Assembly (NCBI RefSeq): GCF_000382285.1 | Contig: NZ_KB907938.1 | Coordinates: forward strand, 1 to 64,000 | Reading direction: 5' to 3' | DNA length: 64,000 nt | Origin: Solimonas variicoloris DSM 15731 | GTDB taxonomy: Bacteria > Pseudomonadota > Gammaproteobacteria > Nevskiales > Nevskiaceae | Shown: positions 2,657-31,766 of the stretch, piece after piece | How the letters are laid out: every line of letters starts with the position of its first letter | Numbering within the stretch: position 1 is the first letter of the stretch | The notes under the pieces: model-generated | Told to the model about the DNA's origin: nothing | Seen by the model: only the letters and a program-made list of their open reading frames with translations | Database searches by the model: none | Program-made: the position numbers and the translations under genes

Positions 2657-3889
2657 TCAGCGCTCGCGGCGCAGCGGCGCGCGCAGGCGCAGGGCTTCGT
2701 AGCGGGTCGCCGCCGCTTCGTCGCGCGCCTGCCGCAGCAGGTTCAGGGTCGCGGCGTCGAGCTGCGCGCCATCGCGGGCGAGCGAGCGTTCGAAGAGGCG
2801 CACATAGTGCTCGCGCGGCGCGACATCGACGCGCAATTCGACGACGCTGCCGTCCGCGGCGGCATCGAGCGGTGCGTCGAACTGCAGCGCCGCCCCGGGC
2901 GGCAGGCGCGTGTCGTCGATCTCGCGATCGAGATCGAGGCCGACGCGCCAGCCGATGACGCGCTGCGCCAGCGTGCGGATCTCCCGCCCGTCGGCATCGA
3001 CCAGCGTCAGCGTCGCGGTGACCTCCGGGACCATGTAGGTCGGGAAGAAGTGGCCGGCGCCGACGTTGCGCAGGCGGGCCTGCGCGCGCCAGCGGCCGTC
3101 CGCGCCCGGCTCCAGGTCGAGCCGCACGTCGAGCGCCTTGAGCACCATGTCCTTGCTGTGAATGCCCTGCCACTGATGCCGGCGATCCGGCATGTGGCAG
3201 CTCTGGCAGGACTGCCCCTCGGCGGCGTAGCGGCTCGCCTGCCACTGCGCGTAGGTGTCCTCGTGCAGCTTGCCGGCGGTGGCCGGGCCGTCCGGCGGAA
3301 ACTGATGGCAGGCGGCGCAGAAGCGGCTGTCCTCGAACGCGGCGGCGGCGACGAAGCCGCCGTGCGGCGCGCCTTGCGCGGCGCCGCCCGACCGCGGCGG
3401 CGGCCCGTAGCGCTGGTGCGCGCGCACATGGCAGGCCGCGCAGACCAGTCCGTCGTGCGCGAGCGTCTCGGGCACATGGTCCGGCGCCGCCGACGCCGGC
3501 CGCTGCGGCCAGGCGAAGGCCTGCGCGACGAGCGCCTTCTGCTCGGCGAGCGGCGCATGGCAGTCCATGCAGCGGTTGGCCTGCGCCTGCGTCATCAGGT
3601 GGAACTGCCACTCGATGCCCGGCCCCATCGCGCGGCTGTGCAGGCTGCGTCGCCAGTCCTCGTGCTGCTGCACATGGCAGCTGCCGCAGGCCGCCGGATC
3701 GAGCGAGCGCTCGAGCGCCGAGTACGCGGCCGGCGGCTCGCCCTGCGCCGGCAGCGGGCGCTGCCAGTGCTGGGCGAGGAACGCCGACGTCGCGTCGGTG
3801 TCGCGTCCGAACCCGTACCGCGCCGCCACGGCGACCGCCGCCGCGGCGAGCCCCGCGGCCGCGATCCGCAGCGGCAGTCGATGGCGCAC
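2657..3889 (-). CDS. pentaheme c-type cytochrome, periplasmic
   Basis: About 410 residues from the proposed GTG start at 3889, which lies 14 bases after the stop of the TusA-like gene. An N-terminal hydrophobic stretch (about 7–25) would act as signal or anchor. Five CXXCH haem sites are visible: CGSCH (68), CMDCH (107), CAACH (150), CAACH (191) and CQSCH (228); the spacing resembles cytochrome c554-like multihaem proteins. The C-terminal 150 residues are haem-free and beta-rich in appearance. It is last in the seven-gene sulfur-redox operon and presumably passes electrons between the inner membrane and periplasmic or outer-membrane partners. The start is uncertain because there is no clear ribosome-binding site; the frame is open further upstream. 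Confidence 0.85.
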   Translation of the reverse strand: MRHRLPLRIAAAGLAAAAVAVAARYGFGRDTDATSAFLAQHWQRPLPAQGEPPAAYSALERSLDPAACGSCHVQQHEDWRRSLHSRAMGPGIEWQFHLMTQAQANRCMDCHAPLAEQKALVAQAFAWPQRPASAAPDHVPETLAHDGLVCAACHVRAHQRYGPPPRSGGAAQGAPHGGFVAAAAFEDSRFCAACHQFPPDGPATAGKLHEDTYAQWQASRYAAEGQSCQSCHMPDRRHQWQGIHSKDMVLKALDVRLDLEPGADGRWRAQARLRNVGAGHFFPTYMVPEVTATLTLVDADGREIRTLAQRVIGWRVGLDLDREIDDTRLPPGAALQFDAPLDAAADGSVVELRVDVAPREHYVRLFERSLARDGAQLDAATLNLLRQARDEAAATRYEALRLRAPLRRER

Positions 3890-3903
3890 GCGGCCGCGTG
3901 CGC

Positions 3904-4155
3904 TCAGGCCTTGGCGATCGTCCAGGTGAAGGTCCCGCCCTGCTTGTCGCGTCCGACCAGTTCGTGCCCTTCGGTTTCGCACATGAAGAGGATCGATTCG
4001 CCGGACGACGGATTGTCGAAGCGCACCGTCAGCCGCTCGCCGCTGGCGAGGTCCTGCAGCGCCTTGTCGGTGTAGACCTGGACGTGCGGGCAACCGTATC
4101 CGGTGATGTCGAGCAGATAGGCGCCGTCGCCGACGCGTTCGAGTTTGTAGGCCAT
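3904..4155 (-). CDS. TusA-like sulfur carrier protein
   Basis: An 83-residue cytoplasmic protein of the TusA/SirA/YedF size. The conserved Cys-Pro sits at C22–P23 in GYGCPHVQVYTDKAL, followed by the family helix, and a second Cys is in FMCETEGHEL. TusA proteins relay sulfur as a persulfide on the Cys of a CPxP motif; here the second Pro is Val (CPHV), so it is a divergent member. It lies 17 bases after the YeeE-type transporter gene, and TusA–YeeE pairing is a well-known arrangement in which the carrier accepts sulfur entering through the transporter. Likely role: accept or deliver sulfur for the operon. Confidence 0.82.
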   Translation of the reverse strand: MAYKLERVGDGAYLLDITGYGCPHVQVYTDKALQDLASGERLTVRFDNPSSGESILFMCETEGHELVGRDKQGGTFTWTIAKA

Positions 4156-4172
4156 GCCGATGACTCCGATGT

Positions 4173-5606
4173 TCAGGCCGGACCGGCGGCGGCGAGCCGG
4201 CGGTCGATCCACCACTTGAATGCGCGCACGCCGCCGTAGCCGCCCGCCACCAGGCCGGCGAAGAAGATCCAGCCGCTCGGATCGCCGTTGGTGACGGTCG
4301 CGAAGAACGCGCCGATGTTGCAGCCCATGCCGATGCGCGAGCCGAGCCCCATCAGCGCGCCGCCGGCGAGCGCGAACACGGCGGTCTCGGCGCTCGGCAG
4401 CTTCCACTTGAACTCGCCGTTCAGATTGGCGATCACGGCGGCGCCGGCAATGATGCCGATCGACATCAGCCCCGGCGCGTTGAGCCAGGGCGCGGGCACG
4501 CCGTTGTCGAGGCCGAAGAACAGATTGTCGCGCATCGCCAGGCCCAGCTTGTCGAGCGCCCAGCCGGCCCACTGCGCTTCCTGCGTGGTGATGTACCAGT
4601 AGCCCGGATCAAACACCGTGTCCTGCAGCGACAGGCCTTCGCTGTGGCCCATCTGCGCCAGCAGCTCGCCGAAATTGAAGATGCCGTAGTGGTCGCGCAG
4701 CGCGCTGGTGATCCACATCTGCAGCCCCGCCAGCGCGCCCAGGCCGAGGCCGACCAGCGCCGTGCGCTTGGAGGCCGTCAGCATCACCCAGATGCCGCGC
4801 AGGTGGTCGCCGATCCGCGCCTGCGCGACCTTGGCGCGGCGCAGGTATCCCTTGCGCCAGGCCGTCGCGTAGAGCAGCGCCAGCAGCGCCGCCGCCGGCA
4901 GCAGCGCCGTCAGCAGGGCATTGGCGACGGCACCGGCCACCGCGCCCTGCACGCCGAGCGCCTGCGCAACGGTTTCCGCCGGCAACGTCCAGAGATAGCC
5001 GGCGGTGAACTGGTCGAACCAGCCATCGGTGATGCCGAGCGCGGCCGGCATGTCCTGTGCGGCAGCAGCTTCGGCCCAGGCCTTCGGCACCGCGCGGTTG
5101 CTCCAGCTGCTGGCGCTGACGAACAGCGCCTGCGACACCGAGATCGCCAGCAGCACCAGCATCGACGCCACGTTGCCCTCGCCGCTCTTGTACAGCGAAC
5201 TCGACGCGCAACCGCCGGTGAAGATCATGCCGAAGCCGAAGATCGCGCCGCCGATCAGCACGTGCCAGCCGAGCGGATGCGGCGCGAAGGTGTTGACGCC
5301 GGCCACGTGCACGATCGCGGCGATCAGTGCGTACAGCACGATCGCGACGATCACGCCGACCGCCATGCGCGGCACGCGCACCATGAAGAGGTCGCGTACC
5401 GCGGACGCCATGCAGAAGCGGCCGTACTGCAGCAGCAGTCCGTAGGCGACGCCGAACCAGGCGTAGACCAGCAGGTAGACGTAGCGCGTGTCCAGCGCCA
5501 GATAGACGCCGGAGACCAGCGCGACGGCGAGGACGATGCCCGCGGCGCTGGGCAGGCCCGCGCGTCCGCCGGCCGGCGACCACGCACCGGATTCGCTGAC
5601 AGCCAT
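4173..5606 (-). CDS. YeeE/YedE family sulfur-compound transporter
   Basis: A 477-residue polytopic membrane protein with two YeeE-type halves. The three cysteines known to be essential in thiosulfate-transporting YeeE proteins have clear counterparts: C65 in QYGRFCMAS, C133 in FTGGCASSS, and C429 in IGMGCNIG. These line the hourglass pore through which thiosulfate is relayed in the family. The ATG at 5606 follows the porin stop by 14 bases. Placement between an outer-membrane porin and a TusA-like carrier suggests a route from the outside (porin) through the periplasm into the cytoplasm (YeeE) onto TusA. The exact substrate, whether thiosulfate, another sulfane sulfur compound or a selenium analogue, cannot be read from the sequence. 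Confidence 0.88.
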   Translation of the reverse strand: MAVSESGAWSPAGGRAGLPSAAGIVLAVALVSGVYLALDTRYVYLLVYAWFGVAYGLLLQYGRFCMASAVRDLFMVRVPRMAVGVIVAIVLYALIAAIVHVAGVNTFAPHPLGWHVLIGGAIFGFGMIFTGGCASSSLYKSGEGNVASMLVLLAISVSQALFVSASSWSNRAVPKAWAEAAAAQDMPAALGITDGWFDQFTAGYLWTLPAETVAQALGVQGAVAGAVANALLTALLPAAALLALLYATAWRKGYLRRAKVAQARIGDHLRGIWVMLTASKRTALVGLGLGALAGLQMWITSALRDHYGIFNFGELLAQMGHSEGLSLQDTVFDPGYWYITTQEAQWAGWALDKLGLAMRDNLFFGLDNGVPAPWLNAPGLMSIGIIAGAAVIANLNGEFKWKLPSAETAVFALAGGALMGLGSRIGMGCNIGAFFATVTNGDPSGWIFFAGLVAGGYGGVRAFKWWIDRRLAAAGPA

Positions 5607-5620
5607 GTCGCGTCGGCTCC

Positions 5621-6814
5621 TCAGAGGATCAGCTGGAAGCCGAGCGTCAGCTGCCAGTTGTCCTGCGCGGCCTGGCTCGACGGATCGGCGCGGTGGTAAT
5701 CGACGTCGTCGTACTCCAGCGTCAGCTTCAGCTGCTGGCCGTCGATGTAGTAGTTGAGGCCGCCGCCGTTGAGCTGGTTGTCGAGGTAGCCGCTGTTCAG
5801 GTTGTAGTCCGAGCGGTCGTGGCGGGCGAAGACCTGCAGGCGGCCGATGCCGATTTTCTGCGGGAACAGATAGCCGCCCTTCACGTAGGAAGCGTGCAGC
5901 TCGGTGTTGCTCGGCAGATTCGCGTCCGGCGCCTGGTTGATGGCATCGCCGACGCCGTAGTGCAGATAGGCGCTCGACAGCGTCACCGTGCCGAAGCCGA
6001 ACGGATACTCGAAGAAGCCGTCGACGGTCCACGCCTTGTAGTCCTTGGCGTCGCTGCGCGTCGCGTAGTTCGCATAGGCGACGTCCGGCTGGTAGTCGTA
6101 GGCGGCGCCGATCGTGAGGATCTTGCGCGTGCCCAGATACGTGCCGCGATAGCCGTAGTCGAACTCGGGGTCCAGGGCGCTCCAGTGAACGCGCGCCGTG
6201 ACGCGCGGCGATTTCTTGGCAACCTCGTCGCCCTCGCGACCATCGGCCACCATCACGCGGTACTGCAGCGCCGCGTCGGCGAGATTGCCCCAGATCGCGA
6301 TGCCGTCGTCGCGCGTGCCGCCGAAGGGCGTGTACGACATCAGCGAGCGATCAAGCGTCAGCGGTTCCAGGCAGCCTTCCAGGTTCTCGCGCGAGAACGT
6401 GTTCTTGAAGCGCCCGAGGATGAAGCGCGCGCCGTCGGCGTAGTCGATCGTCACATAGGCGTCGCGGTAGTAGACCGACTTGTCGTTGTCGCCGTCCTTG
6501 CCTTCGTTGCCGGCTTCGAGCTGCGCGTAGAAGCCGATGAGGTCGTTGTACTGACCGCTGAACGTCAGGCGGTTGCGGCGCAGGAAGAAGTCGGTGCTGC
6601 TGCCGCCGTCGGTGGCCGACGTGTAGCTGCTCGCCTGCGCCCAGGCCTGCAGCGAATAGTCGAGCGTCAGATAGCGCTGATCGTCGACGTTGATCGTCAC
6701 GCCGGCCTGCGCGGTGCCGGCCCAGGCCATGGCGCCCAGCACGCAGGCCTTGACCGCCCACTGCGGCAGCGGGACGGCGTTCGACACCGGCTTCGGGGTG
6801 CTCGGGATGTTCAC
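5621..6814 (-). CDS. outer-membrane porin of the redox operon
   Basis: A 397-residue protein with a signal peptide ending near AQA-GVTINVDD and a beta-barrel pattern throughout: alternating aromatic strands, RRNRLTFSG near the N-terminus as in phosphate-selective (OprO/OprP-like) porins, and a C-terminal strand LTLGFQLIL ending in a hydrophobic residue. The GTG start at 6814 overlaps the stop of the triheme cytochrome gene in a GTGA junction, so the two are translationally coupled. Porin plus rhodanese lipoprotein plus cytochromes is the combination described for the ExtH–ExtI selenite/tellurite loci of Geobacter; orthology was not tested here. Confidence 0.85.
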   Translation of the reverse strand: MNIPSTPKPVSNAVPLPQWAVKACVLGAMAWAGTAQAGVTINVDDQRYLTLDYSLQAWAQASSYTSATDGGSSTDFFLRRNRLTFSGQYNDLIGFYAQLEAGNEGKDGDNDKSVYYRDAYVTIDYADGARFILGRFKNTFSRENLEGCLEPLTLDRSLMSYTPFGGTRDDGIAIWGNLADAALQYRVMVADGREGDEVAKKSPRVTARVHWSALDPEFDYGYRGTYLGTRKILTIGAAYDYQPDVAYANYATRSDAKDYKAWTVDGFFEYPFGFGTVTLSSAYLHYGVGDAINQAPDANLPSNTELHASYVKGGYLFPQKIGIGRLQVFARHDRSDYNLNSGYLDNQLNGGGLNYYIDGQQLKLTLEYDDVDYHRADPSSQAAQDNWQLTLGFQLIL

Positions 6815-7329
6815 GACTGCGGGCCTCCGTTCAGGACCTGCTGATAACGACGGGTAAAGGACTCGACCTGCGCCGGGTTGTGGCAGGTCGCGCAGGTTTT
6901 CTCGGGCGCGGCGAGCGGCTGGGCGACCAGCTTCTCGTGCGCGATTTCCTGCTTGAGGATGCGCGGATTGCCTTGATGGCAACCGGCGCAGGAGTAGTTC
7001 ACCGCCTGGTGATCGACGTGCCAGGGATGCAGCCTGGCGTCGAGCGACGGCGACGGCGCGCGCTTGCCGTTGTGGCACTTGAAGCAGCTCGAAGCGCCGA
7101 GTCCGCAGGCATTGGCGGGCGCGACCGGCGACAGCGCCGCGAGGTCTTCACCCCAGGCGTGCAGCGCTTCATCGCCCCAGGCGCTGGCCGGCGCTGCCGC
7201 ACGCGGCGACTCGCCCGCAGTCGAGAAGATCCAGCCGCCGGCACCGACCAGCAGCAACAGCAGCCACAGCAGCAGGCCGCGCCCGAGCCAGGCACCGACG
7301 CGGCGGCCGAGATGACGAAGCGCGTTCAC
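6811..7329 (-). CDS. membrane-anchored triheme c-type cytochrome
   Basis: A 172-residue protein with one N-terminal transmembrane segment (about 19–35) and a periplasmic domain holding three CXXCH sites: CFKCH (82), CAGCH (114) and CATCH (146). The layout, a single anchor and a small multihaem head, suits quinol-pool electron transfer as in NapC/NrfH-type or NrfB-type proteins, but it has too few haems for NapC. The GTG start at 7329 overlaps the TGA of the small Cys-Met-Cys gene, and its own TGA overlaps the porin GTG; both are GTGA junctions. Confidence 0.85.
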   Translation of the reverse strand: MNALRHLGRRVGAWLGRGLLLWLLLLLVGAGGWIFSTAGESPRAAAPASAWGDEALHAWGEDLAALSPVAPANACGLGASSCFKCHNGKRAPSPSLDARLHPWHVDHQAVNYSCAGCHQGNPRILKQEIAHEKLVAQPLAAPEKTCATCHNPAQVESFTRRYQQVLNGGPQS

Positions 7330-7637
7330 GGCGTCTCTCCGCGGGCCGCGCCGTGCGTGGGTTGAGCGCTATCCGCCGCGGCTGCGGTGGACGCTTGAAG
7401 CGGCGATTGCGCGACGCTGATGTCGGCCTCGCTCAGGCCGCCACTGCACATGCAGACCGGGCCCTGGCGGTACTTGAGCCGCGACGAGGGCGGCGGCGGC
7501 TGCGAACCGAAGCTGACGGTGTACTGCTTGACGGCGGCCGGCGCACGGGCGGCCGCTCGCGGCTCGTCGGCATGCGCGGCGGACAGGCCGGCGAGGAACA
7601 GGCAGAGCGCTGCCGCGGCGCGACTAGCATGGCGCAT
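7326..7637 (-). CDS. small secreted protein with a Cys-Met-Cys motif
   Basis: A 103-residue protein with a signal peptide (cleavage likely after AHA, about residue 23) and a mature part that is Ala/Pro-rich except for a dense segment, KQYTVSFGSQ followed by GPVCMCSGGLSEADI (C62 and C64). The Cys-X-Cys pair could bind metal, form a reactive disulfide or carry a persulfide; this is inference. The ATG at 7637 is preferred over the one at 7649 because GGAG lies six bases upstream of it. It is second in the operon. In Geobacter ext loci a small protein (ExtJ) accompanies ExtH and ExtI; whether this is its counterpart is untested. No family assigned. Confidence 0.7.
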   Translation of the reverse strand: MRHASRAAAALCLFLAGLSAAHADEPRAAARAPAAVKQYTVSFGSQPPPPSSRLKYRQGPVCMCSGGLSEADISVAQSPLQASTAAAADSAQPTHGAARGETP

Positions 7638-7665
7638 CGGATTCTCCATGAGAGAGCGAAAGAAG

Positions 7666-7687
7666 GGGCGCGGCGTCCGCCGCGCCC
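7666..7687 (-). promoter_or_regulatory. strong intra-operon hairpin between rhodanese gene and the rest
   Basis: On the minus strand GGGCGCGGC and GCCGCGCCC flank a four-base GGAC loop, giving a nine-base-pair all-G/C stem just after the rhodanese gene stop. It is followed by TTCTTTCGCTCTCTC, a poor terminator tract. It could attenuate read-through or protect the upstream message so that the lipoprotein is made in excess over downstream membrane proteins. Confidence 0.5.
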
Positions 7688-7702
7688 GTCGATACGGAAC
7701 GG

Positions 7703-9208
7703 TTAGCCGCCGCAGGGATTCGGCGGCGGCGAGCTGCCGCCGGTGGTGCTGCCGCCCGTGGTCGCACCGCCCGTCGAGCCGCCGTCGTCGACCGGATCGT
7801 TGGCGCGTGCGTAGGCCTTGTCGGCGAGGATGGCCTCGTCGGCATGCTCGGCGCCGGCATTGACCACGTAAGGCGTCGTGCTGGCGTCGTTGCGCGGCGC
7901 GATCTGCGCCTGCACCCCGGGCTTGAAGAACGACAGCACGTCGGTCCGCCACACCGACTTGGCCGGCAGGATGAAGTTGCCGTTCTTGTCGGCGATGTAC
8001 GACAGCGAGTTCCACTCGATCATCGACCCGTCGTAGAGGCGCGTCGGATGGCCGAGGATCACGGCGCTGGCGACGGTCGTGATCGCCGCGCGCACCGCCG
8101 TCTCGCAGTAGGTATAGACCACGTCCCCCGGCTGGTAGGCGTTGCCGGAGCCGACCGGCTGCAGCGTGCCGTCGCGGAAGCCCTTGCCCGCCGCATCGAC
8201 CTCGCCGTCGAAGTAGGCCTTGATCTCCGCCTTGGACTTGTAGCGTCCGTCCGCGCCGCCGTTCACCAGCACGTTGGTGTACTGCAACTGCAGCGCACCG
8301 CGCGGATGGCCCTGCCGCGAACCGCCGTTCTGGAAGCTGCTGGTGTAGTTGTAGCCCTCGGGCGGCGCGCCGCTCTCCAGCAGCTCGCCGGCGCTGAACT
8401 GATCCAGGCTGCGCGCATCCCACAGGAAGATGCCGTCCGTGCTGCGGTTGCCATCCTCCAGCGGCAGGACGTTGATGACGTCCTCGAGCGTGGCCTGCAG
8501 CGCCGTGTTGTCTTCCTTGAGGTCACGCACGCTGCCGGCGTACTTGTTCGTCACCGGGCTCGCGGTCGCGGCGAAATCGGTGGCGCTCCAGCCGCCTTCA
8601 CTCGAAGCCAGATACTGATTGCCGCCGTTGAGCACGGCGAGATGATCGGCGGCGACGCCCCAGTAGCGCAGCGTGTACCAGCAGCGACCCTGGATCATCG
8701 CGTTGGACGCGCTGCCCGTACCCGGCGCGCAGACGATGAGATCCTCGCTGGGATTGACGCCGTAGCGGCGCAGCAGCGCATCGATCTGCGCCCCGGAGAG
8801 CACCATGCCGGGCGTCTTGATCACGCCGTTCGAGCGTTCTTCCTGCCAGGCGTTCTCCTGGTAGGAGAAGACCGTTTCGTTGTCGGCCTTGATGAACTCG
8901 GCGCCGGCCGGACCCTTGCTGATCTGGAAGATCACCAGATTGCCCTTGATGCCGGCCGGGCGCTCCTGCAGCCAGTTGTCCTTCCAGCGCTTCAGGGTCT
9001 TGCCGGTGATGAGGCCGCTGCGGTTGTCGTCGTAGTCGTCCGCCGACTCCTGCGCGATCTGCGCCGGCGTGTTGACGATCCGGCTCGCCGCCGGCGTCGT
9101 CTCGGCGCCGGAGCGATCCTCTCCGCCGCAGGCCGCGAGCATCGCGATCACCATGCTGGCGGCAACAAGCCGCCCTGCCCCGCCGTCGCGGCGCCAGCTT
9201 CTCGACAT
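7703..9208 (-). CDS. tandem rhodanese-domain lipoprotein (ExtH-like sulfurtransferase)
   Basis: A 501-residue exported lipoprotein: basic N-terminus, hydrophobic core, lipobox LAAC with C27. Two rhodanese-like halves follow. The first (about 130–205) has the pattern ending GRCWYTLRYWG…VLNGG seen in N-terminal rhodanese domains. The second has LWDARSLDQF (262), GHPRGALQL (300) and the active-site loop VYTYCETAVRA with C368, the expected persulfide-forming cysteine. A Gly/Thr/Ser-rich tail ends the protein. The ATG at 9208 has GAGGAA upstream and heads the operon. Rhodanese lipoproteins beside porins and multihaem cytochromes are described as ExtH in selenite/tellurite loci; a thiosulfate or polysulfide role is equally compatible with the YeeE and TusA genes here. 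Confidence 0.88.
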   Translation of the reverse strand: MSRSWRRDGGAGRLVAASMVIAMLAACGGEDRSGAETTPAASRIVNTPAQIAQESADDYDDNRSGLITGKTLKRWKDNWLQERPAGIKGNLVIFQISKGPAGAEFIKADNETVFSYQENAWQEERSNGVIKTPGMVLSGAQIDALLRRYGVNPSEDLIVCAPGTGSASNAMIQGRCWYTLRYWGVAADHLAVLNGGNQYLASSEGGWSATDFAATASPVTNKYAGSVRDLKEDNTALQATLEDVINVLPLEDGNRSTDGIFLWDARSLDQFSAGELLESGAPPEGYNYTSSFQNGGSRQGHPRGALQLQYTNVLVNGGADGRYKSKAEIKAYFDGEVDAAGKGFRDGTLQPVGSGNAYQPGDVVYTYCETAVRAAITTVASAVILGHPTRLYDGSMIEWNSLSYIADKNGNFILPAKSVWRTDVLSFFKPGVQAQIAPRNDASTTPYVVNAGAEHADEAILADKAYARANDPVDDGGSTGGATTGGSTTGGSSPPPNPCGG

Positions 9209-17443: not shown

Positions 17444-18544
17444 ATGTCCAAGCTCAAGGTGATGCACGTCGAAGCCGGCGAGAACTTCTACGGCGGCGCG
17501 CGTCAGGTCGCCTTCCTCGTCGATGGGCTCGCCAGACGCGGCGTCGACAACGTCGTCGTCTGCCCGCGCGGCTCGCTGACGGCGCGGCGCATCGCCGAGC
17601 TGCCGGTGACGCTGCGCGAGATTCCGATGCACGGCGATCTCGACCTGCTGCTGACGCCGCGCCTGCTCGGCCTGCTGCGCGCCGAGAAGCCCGATCTGCT
17701 GCACCTGCACAGCCGCCGCGGCCCGGAAATCCTCGGCGCGATCGCCGGCCGCCTGCACGGACTGCCGATCGTCTACTCGCGCCGCAACGACCACTACGAA
17801 TCGCCGCGCGTCACGCGCTTCAAGTACCGCCTCTACGACCGCGTCGTCGCGATCTCGGCGGCGATCGGCCAGGTGCTGCAGGACAGCGGCGTGCCGGCCG
17901 GCAAGATCCGCGTCGTGCGCAGCGCCTTCACGCCGGACCCGGTGACGCCGCTGTCGCGCGACGCGCTGCGCGAGACTTTCGGCCTGCCGCACGACGCGTT
18001 CGTGATCGCGATCGTCGCGCAGCTGATCCGCCGCAAGGGCCACGCCGTTCTGCTCGAAGCGATGCCGCGGCTGCTGCAGGCGATCCCGAACCTGCACGTG
18101 CTGTTCTTCGGCAAGGGCGGCTTGCAGCAGGAGCTCGAACAGCAGATCGTCGGCGCCGGCCTCGGCGCGCGCGTCACGCTCGCCGGTTACCGCGAGGATC
18201 TGCCGGCGCTGCTCGAAGGCCTCGATCTCATCATTCATCCGGCGTTCGCCGAAGGCCTCGGCGTGTCGCTGCTGCAGGCCTCGGCGAACGGCGTGGCGAT
18301 CGTCGCCTCGCGCGCCGGCGGCATTCCGGAGGCGGTGCGCGACGGCGTCAACGGCCTGCTGGTGCCGCCGCACGACGTGCAGGCGCTCGGCGACGCGATC
18401 ATCGCGCTCGCCGGCGACGATGCGCGCCGCCACGCGCTCGGCGCCGCCGGCCGCCGGCTGATCGCCGAGGAGTTCTCGGTCGACGTCATGGTCGACGGCA
18501 ACCTCGCCGTCTACCGCGAACTGCTGCCCGAGGTGCGCCCATGA
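17444..18544 (+). CDS. glycosyltransferase family 4
   Basis: A 366-residue GT-B enzyme. The N-terminal half has the nucleotide-independent fold start HVEAGENFYGGARQVAFL (a Gly-rich loop as in GT4), and the C-terminal half has the donor site, VAQLIRRKGHAVLLEA then AFAEGLGVSLLQASANG. In GT4 enzymes the latter region usually holds E-x7-E; here the second Glu is Gln (E…Q), a substitution worth noting. It should add a sugar to the LPS core or another surface glycan. Its stop overlaps the start of the deacetylase gene (ATGA), so the two are coupled. Confidence 0.88.
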   Translation: MSKLKVMHVEAGENFYGGARQVAFLVDGLARRGVDNVVVCPRGSLTARRIAELPVTLREIPMHGDLDLLLTPRLLGLLRAEKPDLLHLHSRRGPEILGAIAGRLHGLPIVYSRRNDHYESPRVTRFKYRLYDRVVAISAAIGQVLQDSGVPAGKIRVVRSAFTPDPVTPLSRDALRETFGLPHDAFVIAIVAQLIRRKGHAVLLEAMPRLLQAIPNLHVLFFGKGGLQQELEQQIVGAGLGARVTLAGYREDLPALLEGLDLIIHPAFAEGLGVSLLQASANGVAIVASRAGGIPEAVRDGVNGLLVPPHDVQALGDAIIALAGDDARRHALGAAGRRLIAEEFSVDVMVDGNLAVYRELLPEVRP

Positions 18545-19284
18545 GCGGCATCAGCATCTTCATGTATCACCAGGTCGGCCGCTTCGCGCCGATGCGCGAC
18601 CATCGCGCCAACTACTGCGACGTCGACCGCTTCCGCGCCCAGCTGCGCTATCTGAAGCTGATCGGCGCCAGCGTGCTGTCGATGAGCGATGCGCTCGCCG
18701 CGCTGCAGGGCCGCCGACCGCTGCCGCCGCGCGCCGTGGTCCTCAGCTTCGACGACGGCTGCGAGAACTTCCACGAGTACGCGCTGCCGGTGCTCGAAGA
18801 GTTCGGCTATCCGGCGATTGCCTACGTCATCGCCGGCATGACCGGCGGCAAGGCCGAATGGCTCGCCGCCGCCGGCCATCCGACGCCGCCGCTGATGGAC
18901 TGGTCGCGTCTCCGCGAGATCGCCGCGCGCGGCGTCGAGATCGGCAGCCATGCCTACCACCACGTGCGCCTCGCCGGCCTCGACGCGGCGACGCTCGCGC
19001 ACGAGGTGACGGACAGCAAGCGCCGCATCGAGGACGAGCTCGGCCAGGCCGTGCCGCACTTCTGCTATCCGTACGGCTCGCATGATCTGGCGACGATGGA
19101 CGCCGCCGCCGCTGCCGGCTACCAGTCGGCCGTCACCTGCCAGCGCGGCGCGGCGACGCCCGCCTTCGATCCGCTGGCGCTGCCGCGCAAGGGCATTTCC
19201 TACGGCGACAACGCCCTCGGCTTCGCCTGGAAGCTGCACACCAAGGACCGCCCGAAAGGCGCCGCGCTGCACCGCACCGCCTGA
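18541..19284 (+). CDS. polysaccharide deacetylase (NodB homology)
   Basis: A 247-residue NodB-domain protein. The metal-binding set is intact: FDDG (D71, D72) and SHxxxH (H137, H141), with HFCYPYGSHD further on. Such enzymes remove N-acetyl groups from sugar residues. No signal peptide is visible, so it may act on a lipid-linked or nucleotide-linked glycan in the cytoplasm. It is translationally coupled to the preceding GT4 gene, which suggests that it deacetylates the sugar that enzyme adds. Confidence 0.9.
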   Translation: MSGISIFMYHQVGRFAPMRDHRANYCDVDRFRAQLRYLKLIGASVLSMSDALAALQGRRPLPPRAVVLSFDDGCENFHEYALPVLEEFGYPAIAYVIAGMTGGKAEWLAAAGHPTPPLMDWSRLREIAARGVEIGSHAYHHVRLAGLDAATLAHEVTDSKRRIEDELGQAVPHFCYPYGSHDLATMDAAAAAGYQSAVTCQRGAATPAFDPLALPRKGISYGDNALGFAWKLHTKDRPKGAALHRTA

Positions 19285-19286
19285 AT

Positions 19287-19316
19287 CCGGCCGCCGCCGG
19301 CGGCGACCCGTTTTTT
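19287..19316 (+). terminator. probable terminator after the deacetylase gene
   Basis: A G/C palindrome (CCGCCG…CGGCGG) followed closely by six T residues, just after the deacetylase stop. The next gene has its own ribosome-binding site 85 bases on. Confidence 0.45.
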
Positions 19317-19400
19317 CACCTTCCATAGACGTGGCGCACCGCAGAGTGCGCGCCAGATCGCGCCCCGCTCCGGGCGCGTACCGTCGCGGGAGGTGCCGGC

Positions 19401-20531
19401 ATGCGCATCATCATGGTCGAACACAGCCACCTGCTGGGTGGCGTCGAGCGCCATGTCCTCGACCTGCTGCTGGCGCTGCGCGCGAACGGCCACACCGTCT
19501 GCTTCGCCGGACCGCTCGACGGCTGGCTCGGCGAGCAATGCCAGCGTCACGATCTGGCGACGCTGGCGCTGCCGATGCGCGGCATGCTCGACGTGCTGTC
19601 GGCCCTGCGGCTGGCGCGCTTCGCGCGGCGCTGGCAGGCCGACCTGCTGCATGGCCATACGCAGCGCGGCACGCGCTACGCGACCTGGGCCGGACGCTGG
19701 ACCGGCATCCCGGCGCTGGCGACCGCGCATTCCACGCATGCACACCGCCGCTTCGAGCGCGCCGCACGGACGATCTGCGTATCCGACGCGGTGCGCGCAT
19801 CGCTGCTCGCGCACGGCCTGCCGGCCGCGCGGCTGACGCGCATCCATTCCGGCATCGCCGATCCGGCGCCGCTGGCGCCGCCGCGCGGCGATGCGCGGCG
19901 GATGCTCGGCCTCGGCGACGACACGCTGGTGCTCGGCATGATTGCGCGCTTCGTGCGCGCCAAGGGGCATGAAGTCGCGATCGAGGCGCTGGCGCGGCTG
20001 CAGCGCGCGAACGCCGTGCTGCTGCTGGCCGGCGCCGACGACAACGATCAGGCCGAGGCCATGCGCCGGCTCGCGGCGGAGCGCGGCGTCGCCGGCCAGA
20101 TCCGCTTCCTCGGCGAGCGCAGCGACGTGCCGCGCATTCTCGCCGCCTGCGACCTGGTGCTGGCGCCCTCGCATCGCGAGGCGCTGTCGCTGGCGCTGCT
20201 CGAAGCGGCGGCGATGGGCGTGCCGGCCGTCGCCAGTCGCGTCGGCGGCATTCCGGAAGCGGTCGAGGACGGCGTCACCGGCCTGCTCGTGCCGGATCGC
20301 GACCCGGCCGCGTTCGCCGCCGCGATCGCCCGCCTCGCCGACGATCCGGCCGCGCGCCGGCAGATGGGCGCCGCCGCGCGGCAGCGCTTCCTGCTGCGCT
20401 TCGCGCGCGAGCGCATGTGCGAAGCGGTCGAGTCCGTGTACCGCGAAGTGCTCGACGCGCACGCACCGCGCCGGCTCGGCGCCGGCGCGCCGCTGGCGAC
20501 CTACTCCAGCAGCCCCATCAGCCGCAGATAG
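19401..20531 (+). CDS. glycosyltransferase family 4
   Basis: A 376-residue GT4 enzyme. VEHSHLLGGVERHVLDLL at the N-terminus gives the acceptor-side glycine loop. The donor half has GMIARFVRAKGHEVAIEAL and a complete E-x7-E, EALSLALLE, followed by GVPAVASRVGGIPE. A GGGAGG ribosome-binding site lies seven bases before the ATG. Its last 31 bases overlap the last 31 bases of the convergent GT4 gene on the minus strand. Sugar specificity cannot be read. Confidence 0.9.
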   Translation: MRIIMVEHSHLLGGVERHVLDLLLALRANGHTVCFAGPLDGWLGEQCQRHDLATLALPMRGMLDVLSALRLARFARRWQADLLHGHTQRGTRYATWAGRWTGIPALATAHSTHAHRRFERAARTICVSDAVRASLLAHGLPAARLTRIHSGIADPAPLAPPRGDARRMLGLGDDTLVLGMIARFVRAKGHEVAIEALARLQRANAVLLLAGADDNDQAEAMRRLAAERGVAGQIRFLGERSDVPRILAACDLVLAPSHREALSLALLEAAAMGVPAVASRVGGIPEAVEDGVTGLLVPDRDPAAFAAAIARLADDPAARRQMGAAARQRFLLRFARERMCEAVESVYREVLDAHAPRRLGAGAPLATYSSSPISRR

Positions 20532-21598
20532 CGCTGTGCGCTGGTCGTCGCACGGTATTCGTCGACGGCCTGCTGCAGCGTGGGCGCCGGCAGCGGCGCG
20601 CGCAGCGTCGCCGCCATCGCCGCCGCCAGCCCCTCGTCGTCGCCGATCCTGACCAGCGCGCCGTAGCGGCCGCGGTCGAGGATTTCGATCGGCCCGCTCG
20701 GACAATCGGTCGACACGCTCGGCACGCCGAGCGCCAGCGCCTCGGTCAGCGCATTCGGCGAACCCTCCCAGGCCGACGACAGCACGAACAGATCGGCGCG
20801 CGACAGCCAGGCATACGGGTTCTTCTGGAAGCCGGCGAGCAGCAGGCACTCGGCGACGCCGAGTTCGGTCGCGAGCTGCACGAGCGCCTCGCGATCCTTG
20901 CCCTCGCCGAGCAGGATCAGCCGGCTCGGCTGCTGCGCCTGCAGCCGCGCGAACGCACGCAGCAGCGTCGGGAAATCCTTCTGCCGCGTCAGGCGGCCCA
21001 TGCCGACCACCACCGGCAGCGTCTTGTCGGCGAGCCAGGCGTGCGGCACCGGCTCGGCCGCCTGCGCGGCGAGCCGCGCGGTGATGACCGGATTGCGGAT
21101 CACGTGCACGCGCGACTCGGGCAGGCCGGTGACACGCACGGTGTCGTCCTTGACGCCCTGCGAGACGGCGACGACGCCGGCGGCATGCGGATAGATGCGG
21201 CGCATCGGGAACACGCGCAGCCAGCGGCTGAACGCGTCCTTGCGCTCGAGCGCCGCCGACAGATTGGTGCCGAGGCGGATCCACACCGGCACCTCGCTGC
21301 CGCTGCGGCGCTTGGCCTTCAGCGCGGCGCGTCCGGCGCGGTCCTTGGCGACCAGCAGCGCATCCGGCCGCACCTCGCGCAGATAGCGCGCGATCTCCGG
21401 CACCGCGGTCCACGCGTGCCGCGCCTGGAGCTGGATCAGGTTTACCGTTGGCGGCACGCGCGAAGCGTGCCCGCCGGCCGACTTGATCGCCAGCAGGTCG
21501 ACCTGCACGGTGTTGGCGAACTCGGCGCAGAGGTTGGTGACCATGCGCTCGACGCCGCCGTCGCCGGAGAAGGAAATCAGTACACCCAGGCGCTTCAT
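20501..21598 (-). CDS. glycosyltransferase family 4
   Basis: A 365-residue GT4 enzyme, paralogous in style to its upstream neighbour: N-terminal SFSGDGGVERMVTNL, donor half VGMGRLTRQKDFPTLLRAF and E-x7-E in WEGSPNALTEAL, then the shared STDCPSGPIEIL. The ATG at 21598 overlaps the upstream stop as TGATG. It is last in a six-gene minus-strand run (GT4-like, broken GT4, sulfotransferase, asnB, GT4, GT4). Confidence 0.9.
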   Translation of the reverse strand: MKRLGVLISFSGDGGVERMVTNLCAEFANTVQVDLLAIKSAGGHASRVPPTVNLIQLQARHAWTAVPEIARYLREVRPDALLVAKDRAGRAALKAKRRSGSEVPVWIRLGTNLSAALERKDAFSRWLRVFPMRRIYPHAAGVVAVSQGVKDDTVRVTGLPESRVHVIRNPVITARLAAQAAEPVPHAWLADKTLPVVVGMGRLTRQKDFPTLLRAFARLQAQQPSRLILLGEGKDREALVQLATELGVAECLLLAGFQKNPYAWLSRADLFVLSSAWEGSPNALTEALALGVPSVSTDCPSGPIEILDRGRYGALVRIGDDEGLAAAMAATLRAPLPAPTLQQAVDEYRATTSAQRYLRLMGLLE

Positions 21599-22749
21599 CA
21601 AAGCTCCACGTCGGAAGCGCGCGGCGGCAGGCCGAACGCGCGCAGGTATTCATCGGTCGCCGCTTCGATCTCGTAGCGGCGCGCGGCCGCCTGCAGCGTC
21701 TCGCGCGGCAGCGGCGCGTCGAGCAGCTGCGCCAGCGCGGCGGCCAGCGCCGCGTCGTCGTCGACCGCCACCAGCGGGCCGTAGCGGCCGTCGGCGAGAA
21801 TCTCGCGCGGGCCGCTCGGGCAGTCGGTCGCCGCCGACGGCGTGCCGCAGGCGAGCGCCTCGATCAGCACGAAGCCCAGCCCTTCCCAGCGCGAGGCCAT
21901 CGCGAACGCGTCGGCGTGCGCCATGAACGCGTAGACGTCGCGGCGGAAACCGGGGAAATCGACGTCGGCGCCGACGCCGAGCCCGGCGGCGAGCGCCTGG
22001 AACTGCTCGCGCTGGCCTTCCTTGCCCTTGCCGACGATCACCAGTCGCGCCGCCCGCTGCGCGCGCAGCCGCGCGAAGGCGCGGATCAGCGTGTCGCAGC
22101 CCTTGCGATGCGACAGCTCGCCGACGGCGACGATCACCGGCACGGTCTGGCCGGCGCCGAACCACGGGTGCTCGGGCGGCGGCGGCTTCTGCGCGAACAG
22201 GCTCGCCGGCACGACCGGGCTGGCCACCGCGCGGATGCACGCGCGCGGCAAGCCGGTGTACGCGCTCATGTCGTCGGCGACCGCCTCGCAGGTGACGATC
22301 ACCTGATCGGCGTGGCGGTACAGATGGCCCATCGACCAGCGCTGCAGCGCGCGCTCGAACGCGCCGCGATGCTGCAGGTCGATCGAAATCGTCGTGCCCG
22401 AGCTGAGCACGAGGCGCGTGTCGCGCGCGCCGGCCAGCCAGCGCGCGGCGAGCGCGGTGCGGTTGACGCGATCCTTGTCGGCGAGCAGCGCGGCCGGCCG
22501 CTCGCGGCGCAGATAGCGCACCAGCGCCGGCAGCGCCGCGTAGGTGGTACGCACGCCGGTGTCGATGACCCGTACGTTCTCGGGAATCTCGGCCAGATTC
22601 GGCCCGTGCTTGCGCACCTTCAGCAGGTCGACCGCATAGCCGCGTGCGGCCAGCGCCGGAATCAGGTGCTGCATCGCGCGATCGACGCCGCTGTGCCCGG
22701 ACGTCGACAGGAAGATCGCGATGCGCCGGCGGTCGACGGCGCCGCTCAT
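21598..22749 (-). CDS. glycosyltransferase family 4
   Basis: A 383-residue GT4 enzyme with N-terminal STSGHSGVDRAMQHL, donor half VAVGELSHRKGCDTLIRAF and E-x7-E in WEGLGFVLIEAL followed by TDCPSGPREIL. Its similarity in layout to the downstream gene suggests an old duplication (inference). It starts in an ATGA overlap with asnB, so amidotransferase and glycosyltransferase are translationally coupled. Confidence 0.9.
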   Translation of the reverse strand: MSGAVDRRRIAIFLSTSGHSGVDRAMQHLIPALAARGYAVDLLKVRKHGPNLAEIPENVRVIDTGVRTTYAALPALVRYLRRERPAALLADKDRVNRTALAARWLAGARDTRLVLSSGTTISIDLQHRGAFERALQRWSMGHLYRHADQVIVTCEAVADDMSAYTGLPRACIRAVASPVVPASLFAQKPPPPEHPWFGAGQTVPVIVAVGELSHRKGCDTLIRAFARLRAQRAARLVIVGKGKEGQREQFQALAAGLGVGADVDFPGFRRDVYAFMAHADAFAMASRWEGLGFVLIEALACGTPSAATDCPSGPREILADGRYGPLVAVDDDAALAAALAQLLDAPLPRETLQAAARRYEIEAATDEYLRAFGLPPRASDVEL

Positions 22750-24563
22750 GCCAGCCACGCCAGCGGGTCCTGCTCGCTGCCGGGCACGGCGCCGGAGTTC
22801 TCGATGAAGAGGCGGTGCCAGATCGCGAACTGCATCAGGCTCCACAGCTCGCGCGTGACGTCGCCGCGCGCGCGCTGGCGATCGAGCAGCGCCTGCACCG
22901 CCGCCGGCTCGCACCAGGCTTCGATCGCCGCCGATTTCGGCAGGCGCCGGCCGAGCGCGTCGAGAAAGCCGGCGTCGCGCATCCAGGTGCCGACCGGCAC
23001 GTGGAAGCCGCGCTTGTGCCGCCACAGGTGATCCTTGGGCAGGAAACCCTCGGCCCAGCGCTTGATGAAGACCTTGCCGGCCTTGCTCGAAACCTTGAGC
23101 CGGCCCGGCAGCGTCAGGCCGAACTCGACGACGCGATGGTCGAGGAACGGCACGCGGCCCTCGATGCTGTAGGCCATCAGCATGCGGTCGGCCTTGACCA
23201 GCAGATCGTCGGGAAGATTGGTCTGCAGGTCGGCGTACTGGCGGCGCTGCAGATCGGTCCAGCTCTTCGGCGTCTCGCGCCAGGCGGCGATCACCGGTGC
23301 ACGGTAGCGCGCCAGCGCCGGCTGCAGCGCCGGCTTGAACAGCCGCCGTACCCACTGTTGATCGAGTTCGGCACGGACGCGGAAACCGCCGCTGCCCGGA
23401 TAGCGCAGCTGCTTGAACCAGCGCTCGAACGGATCGGGCCGGTAGCGGCCGTAGCCGGCGAAAGCCTCGTCGCCGCCCTCGCCGCTGAACACGACTTTCA
23501 GCTCGCGGCCGGCGGCTTCGGCCAGCGCCAGCGTCGGCAGGCAGGCGTAGTCGCGCATCAGGTCGTCGGCCGCCCACACCGCGCGCGGCAGGCGGTGGAA
23601 CACGGCGCGGCTGTCGAGACGGATCGCGCGGTGCTCGGTGCCGAACTGCGCGGCGATGCGGCCGGCGTCGTCGAGCTCGTCGCTGCCGCCGTCCTGCCAG
23701 CCGATCGAATAGGTCTTGATCGGCTGCGAGTGCAGGCGCTTGAGCTGCGCCAGCAGCACCGCCGAATCGACGCCGCCGGACAGGAACACGCCGTACGGCA
23801 CGTCGGAGCGCATGTGCTCGCGCATTACCTGCTCGAACAGCGGCTCCCACTCGGCGACCGCGTCCTCGTAGCTGCGCTCGCGCGGCGCGCCGACGTCACG
23901 CGCCGACCAGTAGCGGTGCGTTTCGGTCCTGAGGTCGGCGCTGATGCGCAGCGCCGTGCCCGGCAGCAAGCGGCGCACGCCGCGGATCACCGTGTCGGCG
24001 CCGGTCGAGAACTGGTTCTGGAAGAACTGCGCGAGCGGCTCCGGCGCGATCTCGCGCTGCGGCAGCAGCGGCAGCAGGGCCTTCAGCTCGCTGGCGTAGA
24101 GCACGCGGTCGCCGAGTTCGGCGACGTACAGCGGCTTGATGCCGAGCCGGTCGCGCACCAGCCACAGCTCGCGCTGCGCGTGGTCGTACAGCGCATACGC
24201 GTACATGCCGTGCAGGCGCTTGAAGCTCGACGGCCCCCACTGCGCGAAGCCGTGCAGCGCGACCTCGCTGTCCGAGCCGGTCAGGAAACGGTGGCCCAGC
24301 GCCTCCAGCTCGCGGCGCAGCTCGATGAAGTTGTAGATCTCGCCGTTGCAGACCAGCGCGTAGCGGCGCGCGGCATCGAACAGCGGCTGGTGGCCGCCGG
24401 CCAGATCGATGATCGCCAGACGCTGATGGGCGATGCCGAAGCTGCCCGAGACGTAGGTGCCGGCGTCCTCGGGGCCGCGGTGCTCCAGACACGAGGCCAT
24501 GCGCAGCAGCTCGGCCTCGGCGACCGGGCCGTCGCGGCGCACCATGCCGGCGATGCCGCACAT
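22746..24563 (-). CDS. asnB: asparagine synthase (glutamine-hydrolysing) type amidotransferase
   Basis: A 605-residue protein with an N-terminal class II glutamine amidotransferase domain (nucleophile C2, about 1–215) and a C-terminal ATP-pyrophosphatase domain with SGGVDS at 262–267. In the family ammonia from glutamine amidates a carboxylate activated by AMP, usually aspartate. Inside a glycosyltransferase operon such proteins often amidate uronic acid residues of surface polysaccharides, and its ATGA coupling to a GT4 gene favours that over free asparagine synthesis. GGAG lies upstream of the ATG. Confidence 0.92.
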   Translation of the reverse strand: MCGIAGMVRRDGPVAEAELLRMASCLEHRGPEDAGTYVSGSFGIAHQRLAIIDLAGGHQPLFDAARRYALVCNGEIYNFIELRRELEALGHRFLTGSDSEVALHGFAQWGPSSFKRLHGMYAYALYDHAQRELWLVRDRLGIKPLYVAELGDRVLYASELKALLPLLPQREIAPEPLAQFFQNQFSTGADTVIRGVRRLLPGTALRISADLRTETHRYWSARDVGAPRERSYEDAVAEWEPLFEQVMREHMRSDVPYGVFLSGGVDSAVLLAQLKRLHSQPIKTYSIGWQDGGSDELDDAGRIAAQFGTEHRAIRLDSRAVFHRLPRAVWAADDLMRDYACLPTLALAEAAGRELKVVFSGEGGDEAFAGYGRYRPDPFERWFKQLRYPGSGGFRVRAELDQQWVRRLFKPALQPALARYRAPVIAAWRETPKSWTDLQRRQYADLQTNLPDDLLVKADRMLMAYSIEGRVPFLDHRVVEFGLTLPGRLKVSSKAGKVFIKRWAEGFLPKDHLWRHKRGFHVPVGTWMRDAGFLDALGRRLPKSAAIEAWCEPAAVQALLDRQRARGDVTRELWSLMQFAIWHRLFIENSGAVPGSEQDPLAWLA

Positions 24564-24689
24564 GACTCAGCTCCGGGCCGGCAGCGCCGGCGGCGGTTCG
24601 ATGGGGCGACGGTCGGGGTTGCGCACGGCGATCGGGCTCATGCCGCGATTATTGCACGCGCTCCGTCGGCGCAAGACGACCGTCCTGTT

Positions 24690-25355
24690 TCAGGACTCCG
24701 GATCGAAGCGGTAGCCGAGCACGTCGATGTCGCGCGCGAAATAGCGGCCGACCAGCTCCGCGAGATCGTCGCTGTAGTAGCGGCGGTAGTCCTTGCTGCG
24801 ATCGGTCGCCTGGCGCTTGTGCGGCAGCTGCGGCGTCGGCACGCCGATGCGCTTGCAGATCACGTCGAAGTCGTCCTGCAGGCGTTCATAGCGGCCGAGG
24901 TAGTCGGTCAGCACCTTGCCGTGCAGGTCGATCAGATAGTCGGTCTGCACCGTGATCGCGGTGTCGAGGTGGTACTGGTACGGGCGCTGCGGATCGAGCT
25001 TCCAGCGCGTGAAGTCCTCGAACGACTCGTGCCCCTCCAGCAGATGCGGACGCTCGCGCTTGAGATGGTGATAGGAGCTGACCTGCAGATCCCAGGGATT
25101 GCGCACGAACGCGAACTTGAACAGCCCGTCGAAGAACTCGTGCGGCAGCATTTCCTGCGCGGCGATGATCTTGGCGTGGCGCGGCAGCTTGGCGGCGATG
25201 CGATGGCCGGTCAGGTGCGAAAGCCGCGAGCAGATGAACTGGGCGATGTAGTACGGGTCCTTCCACTGCAGCGACTTGAGCGCGGCGCGCACGCTGGTGC
25301 CGCCGGTCTTGGCGATATGGACGTAGAGGAAGTTGTAGCGGTTCGAAAGGATCAT
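24690..25355 (-). CDS. sulfotransferase (PAPS-dependent)
   Basis: A 221-residue protein of the carbohydrate sulfotransferase (Sulfotransfer_2) type. The 5'-phosphosulfate loop AKTGGTSVR (15–23) and the 3'-phosphate site FVRNPWDLQVSSYHHL are both present. Such enzymes move sulfate from PAPS to a sugar hydroxyl. Its ATG overlaps the stop of the broken GT4 gene (ATGA), so the sulfotransferase may now depend on translation through a decayed reading frame. It suggests sulfated residues on the LPS core or exopolysaccharide, which is unusual. Confidence 0.85.
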   Translation of the reverse strand: MILSNRYNFLYVHIAKTGGTSVRAALKSLQWKDPYYIAQFICSRLSHLTGHRIAAKLPRHAKIIAAQEMLPHEFFDGLFKFAFVRNPWDLQVSSYHHLKRERPHLLEGHESFEDFTRWKLDPQRPYQYHLDTAITVQTDYLIDLHGKVLTDYLGRYERLQDDFDVICKRIGVPTPQLPHKRQATDRSKDYRRYYSDDLAELVGRYFARDIDVLGYRFDPES

Positions 25356-25708: not shown

Positions 25709-25773
25709 GCGCTCAGCTCAGCCTGCGACCGGGGTGCAGACAGCGTCGGAGAAACAATGGCAATGTCGATGCT

Positions 25774-26967: not shown

Positions 26968-27000
26968 AGAAGCCTGAAACAATTCGTTAGGAATCCCTAA

Positions 27001-27143: not shown

Positions 27144-27147
27144 CTAA

Positions 27148-27466: not shown

Positions 27467-27537
27467 CCGGGCTACGACGAACTCATCGTCGATCGGAGTG
27501 ATGAGGCGACGCACGCGCCCGTGGCGCCGCTCCAGCT

Positions 27538-28500: not shown

Positions 28501-28581
28501 GCCAGAGGAGCGGAAGCACCCATGATAGCGTGCGCGGCGTCGCGACCGTCGCGGCGTCAGCCCCCTCCGCCATTGCCCGCC

Positions 28582-30736: not shown

Positions 30737-30751
30737 GCCTGTTGCCGCCGT

Positions 30752-31753: not shown

Positions 31754-31766
31754 GACGAGCCTCCTT

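Follow-up and report, generated by a model that had tools for sequence, protein, structure and literature searches.

A 64,000-nt stretch of the genome of Solimonas variicoloris DSM 15731 (contig NZ_KB907938.1, positions 1 to 64,000; hereafter the window) carries a minus-strand run of seven genes encoding a rhodanese lipoprotein, a small secreted protein with a Cys-Met-Cys motif, a trihaem cytochrome c, a porin of the ExtI family, a YeeE-type transporter, a TusA-like carrier, and a pentahaem cytochrome c. This set recurs in all 44 related loci of at least 19 kb, and every protein in it except the pentahaem cytochrome has an invariant or almost invariant non-haem cysteine. Because of this pattern in six proteins, which is the new element here, we lean towards reading the unit as a trans-envelope relay of sulfane sulfur that would span both membranes and be linked to c-type cytochromes. 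The genes, with lengths in amino acids (aa), and one further feature are:

7703..9208, minus strand: ExtH-like rhodanese lipoprotein, 501 aa; NF040901 103 bits, tandem thiosulfate-sulfurtransferase fold
7326..7637, minus strand: small secreted Cys-Met-Cys (CxC) protein, 103 aa, with C62 and C64; signal peptide judged by eye
6811..7329, minus strand: trihaem cytochrome c, 172 aa, N-terminal anchor judged by eye; extra non-haem C75
5621..6814, minus strand: ExtI outer-membrane porin, 397 aa; NF040900 346 bits; C148
4173..5606, minus strand: YeeE/YedE-family sulfur transporter, 477 aa; Pfam Sulf_transp 152 bits; C65, C133 and C429
3904..4155, minus strand: TusA-like sulfur carrier, 83 aa; Pfam TusA 55 bits; C22 in a CPHV motif
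2657..3889, minus strand: pentahaem cytochrome c, 410 aa; remote ExtKL/MccSep homologue; M286 at the selenocysteine (Sec) position
7666..7687, minus strand: hairpin of nine G+C pairs with a short T-rich tail in the gap between the ExtH and CxC genes; consensus scan

All seven open reading frames were located where a preceding sequence-only reading had placed them, and the overlaps and short gaps that it described were borne out by the coordinates. The CxC and trihaem genes and the trihaem and porin genes overlap by 4 bases each; gaps of 14–17 bases separate porin from YeeE, YeeE from TusA and TusA from the pentahaem gene, and 65 bases separate ExtH from the CxC gene. Its eight c-type haem sites were also recovered, as three CxxCH motifs in the trihaem and five in the pentahaem protein. 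The hairpin in the 65-base gap is a possible partial terminator, which could lower the expression of the genes downstream of it; the consensus scan returned seven such sites in the region, compared with 2.8 expected from shuffles.

Recurrence of the unit

A scan of genome contigs with an eight-sequence ExtI alignment yielded 78 loci. The tally was restricted to the 44 loci of at least 19 kb, and the 34 shorter ones, which are often cut by contig ends, were kept apart. Alongside ExtI, gene calls placed ExtH, the pentahaem cytochrome and YeeE in 44 of the 44 loci, and six-frame searches placed TusA, the trihaem cytochrome and the CxC protein in all 44 as well. Gene calls alone had given 43 for TusA, 43 for ExtI, 42 for the trihaem protein, 13 for CxC and 36 for the two-component kinase of many relatives; the six-frame searches lifted the first four to 44 and the kinase to 37. 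A set that recurs in all 44 loci is not a chance assembly. The comparison of neighbourhoods on which the sequence-only reading had staked its operon thus returned a recurring unit. YeeE was seen in 18 of the 34 shorter loci; most of the 16 with no full YeeE are short contigs or break off on the side where it would lie, and one short locus (L089, below 19 kb) has no ExtH call.

The scan patterns were derived from members of the unit, so that the sample is biased towards close relatives. Searches of genomes with family models are free of this bias and agree with the scan: nine other genomes lie above the ExtI cut-off, and YeeE and TusA accompany ExtI in seven of them, although some of these genomes are also named scan loci and the two sets are not independent. 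In genome G267 YeeE is split into a pair and TusA matches weakly, and in G026 the unit extends across two contigs. ExtI above the cut-off is rare, with 6 of 274 genomes of the class and 5 of 85 of the order (the window genome is in both samples); within its own genus it passes in 2 of the 11 genomes in the order sample. At E ≤ 1e-40, only 1 of 398 genomes of the phylum sample, which includes the class, was found, namely the window's own. In the nearest named relative, Solimonas flava, both ExtI (locus L055) and YeeE are 98% identical. Further afield, the unit is present in loci labelled Thiobacillus, Thiohalobacter, Thiogranum and others. No ExtI relatives were found in viral contigs, and the five plasmid records with ExtI relatives show less than 30% identity each.

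The loci take two forms. The long form has the order (TusA')-YeeE-TusA-dE-dF-dH-ExtH-pentahaem-CxC-trihaem-ExtI-kinase-regulator, where dE, dF and dH designate a DsrE-like trio; the YeeE-TusA block is divergent in three of the 44 loci (L072, L092 and L108). The compact form, with the order ExtH-CxC-trihaem-ExtI-YeeE-TusA-pentahaem, is represented by L055, L062, L073, L088, L123, L124 and the window, and L122 groups with them; L122 has TusA directly after ExtH and ExtI in two calls. None of the eight compact loci has dE, dF, the kinase or the regulator. In the YeeE tree as well as in the ExtI tree, the compact form occupies one side of a branch with support 99/98 (L122 forms a long branch; the ExtI tree was built without L056). 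Among the named carriers of the compact form are Solimonas flava DSM 18980 and Hydrocarboniphaga effusa AP103. Since the compact form spans Nevskiaceae, Cellvibrio and Rubrivivax, its distribution suggests transfer as a module.

A hybrid arrangement was seen in Bacterium BMS3Bbin13 (L111 and L050, apparently one organism), where YeeE is split into a pair and a further ExtH-like rhodanese accompanies the Ext block and the DsrE-like trio; L111 is shorter than 19 kb and lies outside the 44.

Conserved cysteines in six proteins

The cysteines described in this section are present in 8 of 8 compact loci; the counts that follow refer to long-form or unassigned short loci, with the totals over both groups where given. 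In the ExtH-like protein, the lipobox C27 (codon 9130-9128; 52/52), the catalytic C368 (codon 8107-8105; 57/57, in total 65/65) and C499 in the C-terminal arm, within the ending PPPNPCGG (codon 7714-7712; 56/56, for rows with a residue there), are all invariant. All 65 ExtH proteins have a cysteine within the last five residues, 62 of them in an NPCG(G)(G) ending that mostly follows a Gly/Ser-rich stretch; as a control, among 974 other genes in these loci with products of 100 aa or more, 45 encode a cysteine within the last six residues. The protein is related to the NCBIfam family ExtH (NF040901) but scores below its cut-off (103.4 bits over residues 23-426, cut-off 200). The tandem rhodanese domains that had been read from the sequence were supported by the AlphaFold model (mean predicted local distance difference test score, pLDDT, of 86), for which Foldseek returned the two-domain thiosulfate-sulfurtransferase fold (best match probability 1.00; 40 matches at E ≤ 0.001), whereas Pfam gave a single rhodanese stretch that narrowly missed the cut-off (21.5 against 22.2 bits). 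Residues 475-501 have pLDDT values below 50, and the C-terminal arm is accordingly predicted to be disordered and flexible. With its Gly-rich NPCGG ending, it is reminiscent of SoxY and its arm motif.

The CxC protein had no NCBIfam match in a search up to E 10 and no Pfam match above the cut-off, and it is ExtJ-like by size and position only. Its C64 is invariant (64/64, in total 72/72) and C62 nearly so (63/64, in total 71/72); the search models for CxC and dH had been built in iterations with a permissive E threshold of 0.01. In the trihaem cytochrome, the extra non-haem C75, within ANACGLGASSCxxCH, is likewise invariant (65/65, in total 73/73). A link of this protein to SoxA (E 0.047) was considered and not used.

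The porin passes the NCBIfam ExtI model (NF040900) with 346.1 bits against a cut-off of 150. C148 is its single invariant cysteine (71/71, in total 79/79). None of 34 homologues below the ExtI cut-off has a cysteine at this position; 32 have P and the others H or S. Besides a short strand (39-42), the AlphaFold model (mean pLDDT 85) contains 16 long strands. The stretch between the fifth and sixth of these, which would be loop 3 by the strand numbering of other 16-stranded porins, holds C148 in a low-confidence patch. The best PDB matches of the barrel are OprP and OprO, with general porins also near.

YeeE passes Pfam Sulf_transp (152 bits, cut-off 27), and its profile matches the structures 6leo and 8k1r of the thiosulfate transporter StYeeE. 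The score with the TsuA model (NF052577) is far below the cut-off (104.3 against 400 bits). All three key cysteines are invariant, C65 in 53/53 (in total 61/61) and C133 and C429 in 54/54 each (in total 62/62 each). Nowhere else in the window genome does a sequence pass the Pfam YeeE cut-off of 27 bits; two stretches, both on one other contig, score 26 and 20 bits. The TusA-like protein lies above the cut-off for PF01206 (55.3 against 28.6 bits) and below that of the TusA equivalog model (31 against 78). Its C22 is present in 56/56 (in total 64/64), within the usual CPHP in these 56 rows and in L122; the other 7 of the 8 compact rows, the window among them, have CPHV instead of CPxP.

Six genomes of the class that have no ExtI above the cut-off (L144-L149; G001, G126, G045, G194, G264 and G033) carry, in another context, a YeeE that belongs to a sister clade of this one (about 465-611 bits). 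Nearby gene calls include dE in five, TusA in four and dF in three of the six loci. Five of the six also have a secreted protein of 325-351 aa that looks by eye like a rhodanese, and most have a membrane-like protein of about 550-600 aa; these two proteins are perhaps a second envelope module for the YTD cluster described below.

The pentahaem cytochrome, the only member outside the cysteine pattern, is related to ExtKL (NF040886) at a level below the cut-off (55.9 against 250 bits), and its profile matches the selenocytochrome MccSep (PDB 9wt8) with E 9.3e-12. Sec325 of MccSep aligns with M286 of the window protein, in a region where the alignment is remote. Over 71 homologues this column holds M in 52, L in 14 and V in 5, and never Sec or Cys. 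None of the seven proteins passed the models for ExtO, ExtP or NapC/NirT, which bear on the putative link to quinol electrons in the sequence-only reading, or those for ExtM-S, which were applied to these seven proteins; a weak ExtS match reached 19.8 bits against 100.

Sulfur genes and regulation in the relatives

In the long form, dE and dF are present in 37 and dH in 36 of the 44 loci; together with YeeE-TusA they make up a gene set of the YTD type. The dE protein aligned with canonical DsrE over the full length (hhalign probability 67%, single-comparison E 5e-5); C61 of dE, a residue found in 57/57, faces a cysteine of DsrE in this alignment. It did not align with DsrF (hhalign probability 0.5%), Pfam gave no DsrE match for dE, dF or dH of L060, and PDB profile searches with dE and dF returned nothing credible. 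Canonical DsrE-like and DsrF-like genes are also present in all eight long-form genomes tested for them.

DsrA was surveyed in the genomes of 49 of the 78 loci and in G000, all 42 long-form members of which carry dE and dF. Of these 42, 37 have DsrA above the cut-off, two (G382 and G389) have fragments, and three (G378, G385 and G396) have nothing convincing. SoxB is above the cut-off in 9 of 9 long-form genomes tested. SelD is above it in 6 of 9 long-form genomes tested and in 1 of 8 compact ones, and was not found above it in the window genome. These counts for DsrA, SoxB and SelD are correlations along a single tree. A role in selenium assimilation via TusA is weakened by the SelD counts, since 7 of the 8 compact genomes, that of the window included, have none above the cut-off.

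The kinase and the regulator form a two-component system present in 37 of the 44 loci each, and the regulator of L060 is of the NtrC type, with a sigma-54 activation domain. Sigma-54-like sites were found upstream of YeeE in 20 of 54 long-form loci (1.1 expected) and upstream of ExtH in 17 of 55 (0.6 expected), the expectations coming from mononucleotide shuffles, which keep only the single-base composition. Three of the 17 ExtH sites lie more than 500 bases upstream. In the compact loci no such sites were found (0/8 upstream of YeeE and 0/8 upstream of ExtH). With sigma-54-like sites ahead of both blocks and one regulator next to them, a joint function of the YeeE and ExtH blocks is supported in the long form.

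The long-form histidine kinase (L060:11309-12736 and relatives) has up to six largely conserved cysteines, which suggests sensing of thiols or persulfides. After the regulator, several loci encode a secreted-looking protein (L060:14202-14930, L048:2478-3194, L049:5959-6753 and L050:2-697); that of L060 has no Pfam family above the cut-off.

Surroundings in the window

Directly downstream of the unit, positions 322-2571 of the window encode a protein of 749 aa that includes a papain-family (Peptidase_C1) stretch, and L054 has a 749-aa gene in the same place. At 17444-34571 there is a run of glycosyltransferase-like genes with an asparagine-synthase-like gene, recognized from a look at the sequence and perhaps devoted to surface polysaccharide synthesis. 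Base composition gave no sign of horizontal transfer (69.7% G+C in the cluster, 69.8% in the rest of the window).

A proposed sulfur relay and its alternatives

In the proposed relay, extracellular or periplasmic sulfur (elemental sulfur, polysulfide or thiosulfate) would cross the outer membrane through ExtI; the loop 3 cysteine is seen, the fold is predicted, and transport is what we infer from them. ExtH would form a persulfide on C368 and hand the sulfur to the cysteine of its C-terminal arm, a chemistry proposed by analogy with SoxY for residues that are observed and an arm that is predicted to be disordered. The CxC protein, the ExtH arm, or both would then present sulfur to YeeE, whose three cysteines would pass it to the cytoplasm, a transport proposed from the analogy to StYeeE and SoxT1A, and the TusA-like protein would accept it as a persulfide. 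The trihaem and pentahaem cytochromes would carry electrons to or from the periplasmic sulfur carriers, in either direction. In the compact form, including the window, the cytoplasmic use of the sulfur may differ from that in the long form.

Selenium or tellurium compounds as the main substrate, as the sequence-only reading had it, fared less well. Under this explanation, the oxyanions would enter via the porin and be reduced or detoxified by the periplasmic cytochromes, with YeeE-TusA as a side branch. The porin does pass the ExtI model, and a Geobacter extI mutant is poorer at selenite and tellurite reduction (PMC5877670), but the natural substrate need not show in a mutant phenotype. Moreover, long-form relatives have a DsrE-like gene and mostly DsrA (37 of 42), all 71 pentahaem homologues have M, L or V at the MccSep Sec position, and the window genome lacks SelD above the cut-off. 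We therefore favour sulfur, which fits the gene context and the missing Sec better, and regard selenite or tellurite reduction as unlikely. Similarly improbable, in our estimate, is that the unit serves the assimilation or scavenging of thiosulfate or polysulfide, with its outer-membrane part as the entry to a YeeE-TusA pair of the TsuAB kind that feeds cysteine synthesis or thiolation. This explanation is most plausible for the compact form, in which none of the eight genomes has DsrA or SoxB above the cut-off. It also agrees with the match of the YeeE profile to thiosulfate transporter structures, with the status of YeeE as the sole above-cut-off place in the window genome, and with the cleavage of thiosulfate by YeeD, a TusA-family partner (PMC11073785). 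However, the TsuA score is 104 against a cut-off of 400, eight haems, a rhodanese lipoprotein and a dedicated porin exceed what TsuAB assimilation needs, and the long-form relatives indicate dissimilatory use. Finally, the chief role of the unit could be to conduct electrons at the outer membrane, its sulfur proteins serving as redox partners or sensors, an idea suggested by its eight haems and by Geobacter, where extHIJKL is among several putative electron conduits (PMC6148476). Against it stand the invariant non-haem cysteines, a barrel model nearest to OprP/OprO and general porins, and a unit without an outer-surface multihaem cytochrome or a protein passing a quinol-oxidase-type model, so that we consider it very unlikely.

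Several observations weigh against the sulfur relay itself. The genetic data considered here for an ExtI homologue come from Geobacter and deal with selenite and tellurite (PMC5877670), and deletion of extHIJKL there reduces growth on Fe(III) citrate to 66% (PMC6148476). DsrA and SoxB are both below the cut-off or absent in 8 of 8 compact genomes, the window genome included, and the difference in DsrA lies along one branch and may reflect one event. In two of the eight compact genomes an sHdr-type sink is disfavoured by the lack of any CCG-domain protein. The compact TusA proteins have CPHV in place of CPxP in seven of eight cases, dF and dH matched no known family by sequence, and the fact that porin, rhodanese and transporter share an operon does not prove a flow of sulfur between the three.

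A stronger version of the sulfur relay, which we put forward tentatively, is a complete protein wire made up of ExtI, ExtH, CxC, the cytochrome and YeeE-TusA, in which sulfane sulfur would stay bound to protein as a persulfide all the way from the surface of the cell into the cytoplasm. The porin thiol would sit in the eyelet, ExtH might reach into or through the porin with a SoxY-like swinging arm, CxC would act as a shuttle, and a cytochrome with a possible Cys haem ligand would load or unload the carriers. If so, the selenite phenotype in Geobacter would merely accompany the work of a related conduit for chalcogens, and bacteria that lack Dsr and Sox would have acquired the compact form as a module. 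The delivery of sulfur from outside to the cytoplasmic oxidation machinery is poorly understood, and SoxT1A is the only experimentally demonstrated importer in dissimilatory sulfur oxidizers (PMC11582611). The unit is a specific candidate for sulfur import, with named residues to mutate, and would tie together three puzzles, namely the Geobacter ext genes, the YTD cluster and sulfur import. S. flava DSM 18980 and H. effusa AP103 are possible test hosts for the compact form.

Comparison with known systems

The view that the unit merges an Ext-type envelope module with a YeeE-TusA importer held up, with ExtI passing its family model and the ExtH-like and ExtKL-like proteins related below the cut-offs. 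The claim that no characterized system has the full set stood in part. Among the matches listed in our literature search, which left most subscription journals outside, no paper on this unit was found beyond one on Desulfurivibrio dismutans. There, a porin gene co-localized with rhodanese lipoproteins and YeeE had already been noted, and the authors suggest import through the porin (PMC12142623). The porin, rhodanese lipoproteins and adjacent YeeE are shared with the window at the level of gene content; the neighbourhood section of that paper describes no conserved unit, cysteine chain or cytochromes, and its main text does not use the name ExtI. The word MccSep was not found among the matches listed. 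Related accounts concern the selenoproteome (a review, PMC13188914), iron and sulfide in D. alkaliphilus (PMC12545173) and Thiohalobacter genomes (PMC6504805).

With the extHIJKL(MNOPQS) cluster of Geobacter sulfurreducens, the unit shares a rhodanese lipoprotein, the ExtI porin, a small periplasmic protein and a pentahaem cytochrome of the ExtKL/MccSep kind (PMC5877670, PMC6148476). It differs in the addition of YeeE-TusA and the trihaem cytochrome, in the lack of ExtM-ExtS and of selenocysteine, in ExtH and ExtKL scores below the cut-offs, and possibly in the NPCGG arm of ExtH. The YTD cluster, or yeeE-tusA-dsrEFH type II, is known from sulfur disproportionators and cable bacteria (PMC13293266, PMC13047784, PMC12998232); in cable bacteria, structure and assay identify its last three genes as DsrEFH type II (PMC13293266), and the gene order is also given in PMC9751629. 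YeeE and TusA are shared with the window, and 37 of the 44 relatives add the DsrE-like and small genes in the published order, a likeness in the kind and order of the genes. The window itself lacks the DsrE-like trio, and here the pair is joined to an Ext-type envelope module; the main text of PMC13293266, PMC13047784 and PMC12998232 does not contain the word 'porin'. With SoxYZ/SoxXA, the unit has in common a C-terminal cysteine arm as putative sulfur carrier (the SoxY arm is described in PMC11237559) together with c-type cytochromes. No sequence relation is seen, and the arm here belongs to a rhodanese lipoprotein, so that the unit would work like the Sox system without being a member of it.

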